In this document: piece after piece, positions 7,553-8,044 of the stretch
Numbering within the stretch: the stretch's first letter is position 1
Layout: every line of letters begins with the position of its first letter
NCBI GenBank assembly: GCA_947311115.1
Contig: CAMZKE010000056.1
Coordinates: forward strand, 1-37,859
Origin: an uncultured Bacteroidales bacterium
Lineage (GTDB): Bacteria > Bacteroidota > Bacteroidia > Bacteroidales > JAFGXI01
Reading direction: 5' to 3'
DNA: 37,859 nt
Made by a program: the position numbers and the translations under genes
The notes under the pieces: generated by a model
Told to the model about the DNA's origin: nothing
Databases searched by the model: none
Seen by the model: only the letters and a program-made list of their open reading frames with translations

Positions 7553-7572
7553 TTACTACAAATAGGTAGTAT
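7553..7572 (-). promoter_or_regulatory. Candidate Rrf2/NsrR-type operator upstream of norZ
   Basis: Inverted repeat TACTA (7554-7558), 8-base spacer, TAGTA (7567-7571). The same arms with the same spacing, and with the same AGG (plus-strand) next to the right arm, occur upstream of the adjacent Rrf2 gene at 8005-8024. Shared symmetry and spacing upstream of a regulator and its neighbour is typical of an operator. The binding protein is inferred, not shown. Confidence 0.5.
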
Positions 7573-7588
7573 TTATTTGCAAAAAAAA

Positions 7589-8002
7589 TCAAAACCTCGA
7601 CACTTCCAAATGATTAATATCATAAAGTGTAGTATTTTCTAATGTTTTAATAAATTCTGCTTTGTTTTTCTCCCACACATAGTGCATTGCACAAGGATTT
7701 TCGTTTGAACACTCGTGAAATCCGAGAATACAAGCATTAAAACTTTCCATTCCTTCAACTGCTTCAATTATTCTTGAAAGGGTTATTTCTTTAAGGTTTT
7801 TGGTGAATTTAAAACCGCCATCTCTTCCTCTGACACTTGTTAAACAGCCGGTTTTAGCTAAATCTGTCATCAGTTTAGTTAAGTATTTATAAGGGATATT
7901 TAACTGCTCGTGCAAGTATTTTGCCGAGAACAGATTCTGTTCTTGACTTGCCATATAAGTCAAAACACGAACCGCATATTCTGTTGTCTTTGTTAAAATC
8001 AT
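7589..8002 (-). CDS. Rrf2-family transcriptional regulator, probable Fe-S/NO sensor (NsrR-like)
   Basis: 137 residues from the ATG at 8002, chosen because the family starts MxLTKxTEYAVRVLTYMA. An upstream in-frame ATG at 8053 would add 17 residues unlike the family, and it lies upstream of the promoter's -33 box. Winged helix-turn-helix at 1-70, including the recognition region IPYKYLTKLMTDLAKTG and the wing VRGRDGGFKF. Three cysteines at 91, 98 and 104 (C-x6-C-x5-C) sit where IscR and NsrR bind an iron-sulfur cluster. Family knowledge: NsrR holds a cluster that NO destroys, which releases repression of NO-detoxifying genes. The next gene downstream encodes NO reductase, so an NsrR-like role is a good inference; an IscR-like role is less likely because no isc or suf genes are near. 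Autoregulation is suggested by an inverted repeat lying over its own promoter. Confidence 0.88.
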   Translation of the reverse strand: MILTKTTEYAVRVLTYMASQEQNLFSAKYLHEQLNIPYKYLTKLMTDLAKTGCLTSVRGRDGGFKFTKNLKEITLSRIIEAVEGMESFNACILGFHECSNENPCAMHYVWEKNKAEFIKTLENTTLYDINHLEVSRF

Positions 8003-8004
8003 AA

Positions 8005-8024
8005 ATACTATGCAAAGGTAGTAT
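8005..8024 (-). promoter_or_regulatory. Candidate operator overlapping the Rrf2 gene promoter
   Basis: Perfect 6-bp inverted repeat ATACTA (8005-8010), 8-base spacer, TAGTAT (8019-8024). The spacer and right arm contain the -7 box of the promoter at 8013-8044, so bound protein would block transcription start. Its arms and spacing match the site before norZ at 7553-7572. Confidence 0.55.
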
Positions 8025-8044
8025 ATTAAATTAATACATTCAAA
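8013..8044 (-). promoter_or_regulatory. Bacteroidota-type promoter of the Rrf2 gene
   Basis: On the minus strand TTTG (8041-8044), 20-base spacer, TACCTTTG (8013-8020): an exact fit to the Bacteroidota primary-sigma consensus TTTG-N19/20-TAnnTTTG. The start of transcription would fall only a few bases before the ATG at 8002, so the mRNA is close to leaderless. Confidence 0.75.

Follow-up and report, generated by a model that had tools for sequence, protein, structure and literature searches.

A conserved palindromic site linking one clade of Rrf2-family regulators to probable nitric oxide reductase genes in Bacteroidota

Many Bacteroidota encode reductases for nitrate or nitrite as well as a quinol-type nitric oxide reductase (qNOR). 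In the window (the whole 37,859-nt stretch of DNA analyzed here, from an uncultured Bacteroidales bacterium), a regulator gene and the qNOR gene behind it are each preceded by the same palindrome. Is this palindrome the operator of that regulator and, if so, to which signal does the pair respond? In the accessible text of a comparative study of NO regulation, HcpR is the sole Bacteroidota regulator found (PMC1274295). The reading that we favor, with a probability of roughly three in four, is that a regulator of the Rrf2 family keeps its own gene and NO-related genes repressed and leaves the DNA once NO reaches its Fe–S cluster. The regulator and the qNOR very probably form a real NO-response circuit with a DNA code of its own. 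The open-access papers searched contain no account of such an operator or regulon; subscription papers and regulon databases lay outside that search, so that the novelty is provisional.

Exact copies of TACTA-N8-TAGTA occur in the window at two places only (0.08 expected; two copies were reached in 0 of 100 shuffles). The arms, spacing and coordinates given for both palindromes in the earlier note are exact, and its confinement of the sites to these two gene starts agrees with the lack of any further exact match in the window. The 18-bp cores are TACTACAAATAGGTAGTA (7554–7571) and TACTATGCAAAGGTAGTA (8006–8023); on the coding (minus) strand they read TACTACCTATTTGTAGTA, 5′ of the qNOR ATG, and TACTACCTTTGCATAGTA, 5′ of the regulator ATG (Table 1). 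The 5-bp arms and 8-bp spacer first described are present, but the relatives yield a refined consensus, aATACTAC-N6-GTAGTATt, with arms of 6–7 bp around a 6-bp center. As judged from that comparison, both palindromes are conserved regulatory sites.

Table 1. Genes, palindromes and candidate promoter elements at the regulator–qNOR locus of the window
Feature	Position	Strand	Basis or remark
Rrf2-family regulator, 137 aa	7589..8002	(-)	PF02082, TIGR00738; start and Cys/His pattern match orthologs
Quinol-type nitric oxide reductase (qNOR, norZ/norB), 746 aa	5264..7504	(-)	PF22085 and PF00115, conserved residues
Regulator operator ATACTACCTTTGCATAGTAT	8005..8024	(-)	18-bp core 3 nt from regulator start codon
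qNOR operator ATACTACCTATTTGTAGTAA	7553..7572	(-)	49 nt upstream of qNOR start
Candidate -7 element TACCTTTG, within regulator operator	8013..8020	(-)	Putative, from TAnnTTTG consensus (PMC7366714)
Candidate -33 TTTG, 20 nt before TACCTTTG	8041..8044	(-)	Putative, from consensus (PMC7366714)
TTTG, candidate end of qNOR -7 element	7580..7583	(-)	Same position in 12/26 equivalent promoters

The two genes, both on the minus strand, are separated by an 84-nt gap. In agreement with its orthologs, the regulator starts at the ATG at 8002 rather than at GTG 8053, the start of the mechanical open reading frame. It belongs to the Rrf2 superfamily, with 113.8 bits for PF02082 (cut-off 30) and 117.7 bits for TIGR00738 (cut-off 73.3). 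The cysteines previously ascribed to it are there, with a histidine in addition, in the motif Cys91-x6-Cys98-x5-Cys104-x2-His107. The qNOR (140.8 bits for PF22085 and 202.1 bits for PF00115) has the fused cytochrome-c-like and NorB domains of its class, with the catalytic His and Glu. Its IHLWVE motif is invariant in 23 of 23 relatives, and GHH and the Glu of SALE are also conserved. The best relative of solved structure is 3ayf, the Geobacillus qNOR; in the alignment, read by eye, residues His, Asp and Asp stand at the 3ayf positions His328, Glu332 and Asp746.

A search of 393 genomes of the order brought out a group of Rrf2 relatives standing above the rest; 56 loci were fetched, with 29 more from a phylum-wide draw, and a scan of genome contigs yielded two close relatives and one distant one. 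In the tree, every site-bearing regulator lies within one clade of 55 rows, of modest support (82/97); E. coli NsrR falls outside this clade but, like E. coli IscR, on a very long branch. A uniform rule (score of at least 10, within 100 nt upstream or 170 nt past the regulator stop codon) finds a site at 40 of the 55 clade loci (20 of them have one on either side of the gene) and at 0 of 31 other Rrf2 genes (Fisher 2e-12, a descriptive value since the sequences are related). The other 15 clade loci have no site scoring at least 10. Upstream of the regulator, a site scoring at least 9 of 12 occurs in 38 of 50 clade members; it is imperfect in most loci and lies 3–5 nt from the start codon in 30 of the 38. 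In the gaps between Rrf2 and qNOR genes, a site scoring at least 10 occurs in 18 of 26. One site-bearing qNOR locus (L144) belongs to a genome listed as of the same phylum only, hence of another class. The repeat that the earlier note had described at a single locus is conserved at orthologous Rrf2–qNOR loci within Bacteroidales, extends to a second class and is tied to one Rrf2 clade. The operator, its link to that clade, its promoter position and its nitrogen-oxide neighbors are strongly supported by these sequence comparisons.

Two groups of qNOR can be told apart in the order, one 67–100% and the other about 33% identical to the window qNOR, and none of 25 group-2 qNORs has a site scoring at least 10 in 400 bp. 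The 55 clade regulators adjoin a group-1 qNOR in 27 loci, a group-2 qNOR in one, a norC/norB-type cNOR in one and NrfHA in one. A cupredoxin-like subunit II and a heme-copper subunit I adjoin 17 of the 55 (two show subunit II alone), and eight have another neighbor or a contig end. In sum, 47 of the 55 lie next to NrfHA or to an NO reductase, counting the candidate ones; by gene neighborhood and site alone, the targets are NO-detoxification genes.

Family models match the heme-copper pair merely as cytochrome oxidase. Helix VI of subunit I reads FWWGLDL(I/V)ADG in 10 of 10 sequences aligned, with LDLxADG standing where oxygen reductases have HPxVY. In the alignment with ba3 oxidase, read by eye, the positions of the copper-ligand His and of the cross-linked Tyr are both Asp. 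According to a published table, gNOR has Asp where the Tyr stands (PMC8756737). The replacement of the active-site Tyr by Asp, as in gNOR (in comparison with ba3 oxidase and the published table only), suggests that the pair is a candidate gNOR-like NO reductase. In L058:4548-6771 and the equivalents L052, L060, L063, L068, L073, L077, L083, L085 and L086, WWGLDLxADG is invariant and accompanied by WSHH(L/M).

The odds appear evenly balanced that the Rrf2 clade, with its own operator, is the NO switch of the Bacteroidota and that evolution has combined it with three or more dissimilar NO reductases (qNOR, cNOR and the cupredoxin plus heme-copper pair). If true, the operator would be a tag for uncharacterized NO-handling genes, including a little-known group of Bacteroidota NO reductases. 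With a defined operator and regulator clade, the NO regulon could be searched for in any Bacteroidota genome, and the operator would draw attention to probable NO reductases for which the family models give no match but cytochrome oxidase.

In the genome from which the window comes, the short form TACTA-N8-TAGTA is not special: the 3.5 Mb contain 9 sites, whereas the reversed control has 6, and the seven away from the locus are all within genes or at gene ends. It was dropped on that count, and the longer consensus was used instead. With at most 1 mismatch of 14, ATACTAC-N6-GTAGTAT occurs at only four places: at the regulator, at the qNOR, at napA and inside a membrane-protein gene. The longer pattern discriminates genome-wide, unlike the short one. 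The napA site lies about 45 nt upstream of the gene for a periplasmic nitrate reductase, identified by a Tat signal, by NapA models as top NCBIfam matches and by further nap-looking genes behind it. As a general target, napA was rejected, with the site in 2 of 9 genomes only. Two further candidates were also rejected: hcp, which was not detected in this genome, and nrfA, which is present with no site around it. The qNOR, as originally named, remains a target, but that naming was too narrow, given the napA site and the relatives with cNOR, cupredoxin/heme-copper genes and NrfHA.

Which kind of Rrf2 regulator is it? The NCBIfam equivalog for NsrR (NF008240) scores 59.6 bits, below its cut-off of 182, and those for IscR score 69.4 and 45.6 bits, below 207.55 and 275, respectively. 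Cys91, Cys98, Cys104 and His107 are present in every clade member examined. His107, a cluster ligand in IscR, is invariant in the clade but is found outside it as well. Position 8, where Streptomyces NsrR has a cluster ligand, is Glu in the window protein and in most of the clade, and K, Q, S, T, I or D elsewhere in the clade; with this variation, the NO chemistry is not simply transferable. The AlphaFold model (three sequences) has a mean pLDDT of 63 and an unresolved cluster loop. A fold search with this low-confidence model returned Rrf2 proteins with RsrR structures on top; NsrR, IscR and RsrR were not separated, and the predicted structure was rejected as a test of identity.

With NsrR of E. 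coli and Streptomyces, the regulator shares the Rrf2 fold family, three cluster cysteines, NO-related targets and an operator over promoters. In the available text of the comparative study, NsrR targets include norB-type genes in some bacteria, and the NsrR consensus is gATGyAT-N5-ATrCATc (PMC1274295). The sites here are, in contrast, of even length (ATACTAC-N6-GTAGTAT), so that the earlier distinction from the proteobacterial NsrR site is borne out by aATACTAC-N6-GTAGTATt. The cysteine spacing also differs (x4/x5 in E. coli NsrR, x6/x5 in the window regulator), as does the presence of His107. NsrR-Th of Thermus thermophilus, also of the Rrf2 family, is likewise encoded next to denitrification genes and has a palindrome peculiar to its lineage, which precedes the regulator's own gene too (PMC5748679), but that palindrome is CTTGACCNNGGTCATGG, the protein is a dual activator/repressor and the phylum is different. 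E. coli IscR has in common the Rrf2 family, three cysteines and the His at IscR position 107; the window regulator, however, is under the NCBIfam IscR cut-off, and NO genes adjoin it, not isc/suf. HcpR2 of Bacteroides and Porphyromonas, in the same phylum, is predicted in the text available to control nitrogen-oxide stress genes (PMC1274295), but it belongs to the CRP/FNR family, with a GTAAC-N4-GTTAC site and an hcp target, and the genome studied here has no detectable hcp. Because of the missed cut-offs, the different operator and the Thermus precedent, we file the protein as an NsrR-like Rrf2 regulator, which by analogy would work like NsrR. From the NsrR–qNOR module put forward in the earlier note, the conserved site, the single clade and the non-NsrR operator can be kept; the NsrR identity is left unsupported by the score, the x6/x5 spacing and His107.

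In the mechanism that we propose, a dimer of the regulator would bind aATACTAC-N6-GTAGTATt over or just downstream of the -7 element and would repress its own gene, the separately promoted qNOR and, elsewhere in the genome, napA. DNA binding would depend on an Fe–S cluster whose ligands would be C91, C98 and C104 and, as the fourth, either His107 or Glu8. NO would attack the cluster, the dimer would release the DNA, and the qNOR would be made and remove NO. In the NsrR family, the Fe–S holo dimer binds DNA and NO releases it (PMC11500311); a cluster on the three cysteines, binding by the holo dimer and release by NO are presumed here on that model. We infer that the regulator itself binds the site, that it carries the cluster, that its signal is NO and that it acts as a repressor.

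The main rival concerns the signal, and activation comes second. The regulator could, like RsrR or IscR, respond to redox, oxygen or Fe–S/iron status, with the nitrogen-oxide genes following as they are needed under anoxia. The invariant IscR-like His107, the variable residue 8 and the RsrR structures on top of the fold matches (with a low-confidence model) lean that way, and napA and NrfHA as targets would suit a wider anaerobic response. The neighbors of the clade are, however, mostly NO reductases of unlike kinds, and in the genome of the window no site with at most 1 mismatch occurs at Fe–S assembly genes; we consider such a signal unlikely.

The main promoter of Bacteroidota has TAnnTTTG at -7 and TTTG near -33, and leaders in B. 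thetaiotaomicron are mostly 23 nt (PMC7366714). In the window and the three nearest loci of its type (L043, L044 and L045), a candidate -7 box, TACCTTTG or TACTTTTG, falls inside the regulator operator, which would make the regulator transcript nearly leaderless. For the qNOR, the candidate TTTG starts 12 nt before the operator, in a T run past the regulator stop codon. A TTTG 8–14 nt before the operator is found in 22 of 38 regulator promoters (1.8 expected) and in 13 of 26 downstream promoters (1.5 expected); with this spacing, the operator would cover the transcription start. These positions bear on whether the regulator could instead activate the qNOR, or both activate and repress from the same site, as does the NsrR-like protein of Thermus, which activates norC and nirJ and represses nirS (PMC5748679). 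Protein bound where these sites lie, on the likely -7 element or immediately past it, normally blocks transcription, and activation is accordingly given little weight.

The palindrome might also act as a leader RNA hairpin governing translation or termination, as it lies in the probable leader by the start codon and its arms could pair. One-sided arm changes number 70, against 6 two-sided complementary ones; without covariation in the arms, an RNA stem is highly improbable, and the hairpin was rejected. That the palindrome is a chance or compositional product of AT-rich DNA, for which the genome-wide count of the 5-bp form could be cited, is already refuted by sequence and position conserved in 40 clade loci against 0 of 31 controls, and we give it practically no credence.

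In 43 genomes of relatives, exact TACTAC-N6-GTAGTA occurs 18 times, with 13 of these sites located at the regulator or in the gap that follows. The five off-locus sites (in G084, G176 and G324) were rejected as NO targets, having no visible NO link: one is intragenic, two are identical G176 copies, one precedes a gene for a 131-aa protein and one a LysM-type gene. The G176 copies, at L130:1986 and L132:2002, are of GCATACTACTTTGTTGTAGTATCG and lie beside unrelated genes. In G324 (L133:1540-1935, minus strand), the exact site is about 60 nt 5′ of the 131-aa gene, which has no assigned function and may be a further target.

Three genomes belonging to a single genus have a diverged regulator that does not lie beside the qNOR. 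Where the clade has forms such as KYLRRLMT, its recognition helix reads KNVRKILF, and the site at the distant qNOR is TATTAC-N6-GTAATA (with GTAACA as the second arm in one genome), both arms being altered alike. A helix change paired with a symmetric site change would be expected if regulator and operator had co-evolved.

Two exported proteins that resemble each other (423 and 441 aa; their sequences look porin-like) are encoded at L075:2696-3967 and L135:10979-12304; the former lies together with nrfHA behind the regulator, the latter at the end of the nap cluster in the genome of the window. A different Rrf2 group (L152, L155, L157, L158, L161, L162 and L168) has another short palindrome, of the type TTTAAGACTAA-N-AGTCTGA, near its start codon and just upstream of it; the genes downstream encode proteins of about 380–430 aa that begin like KKIPPELRR.
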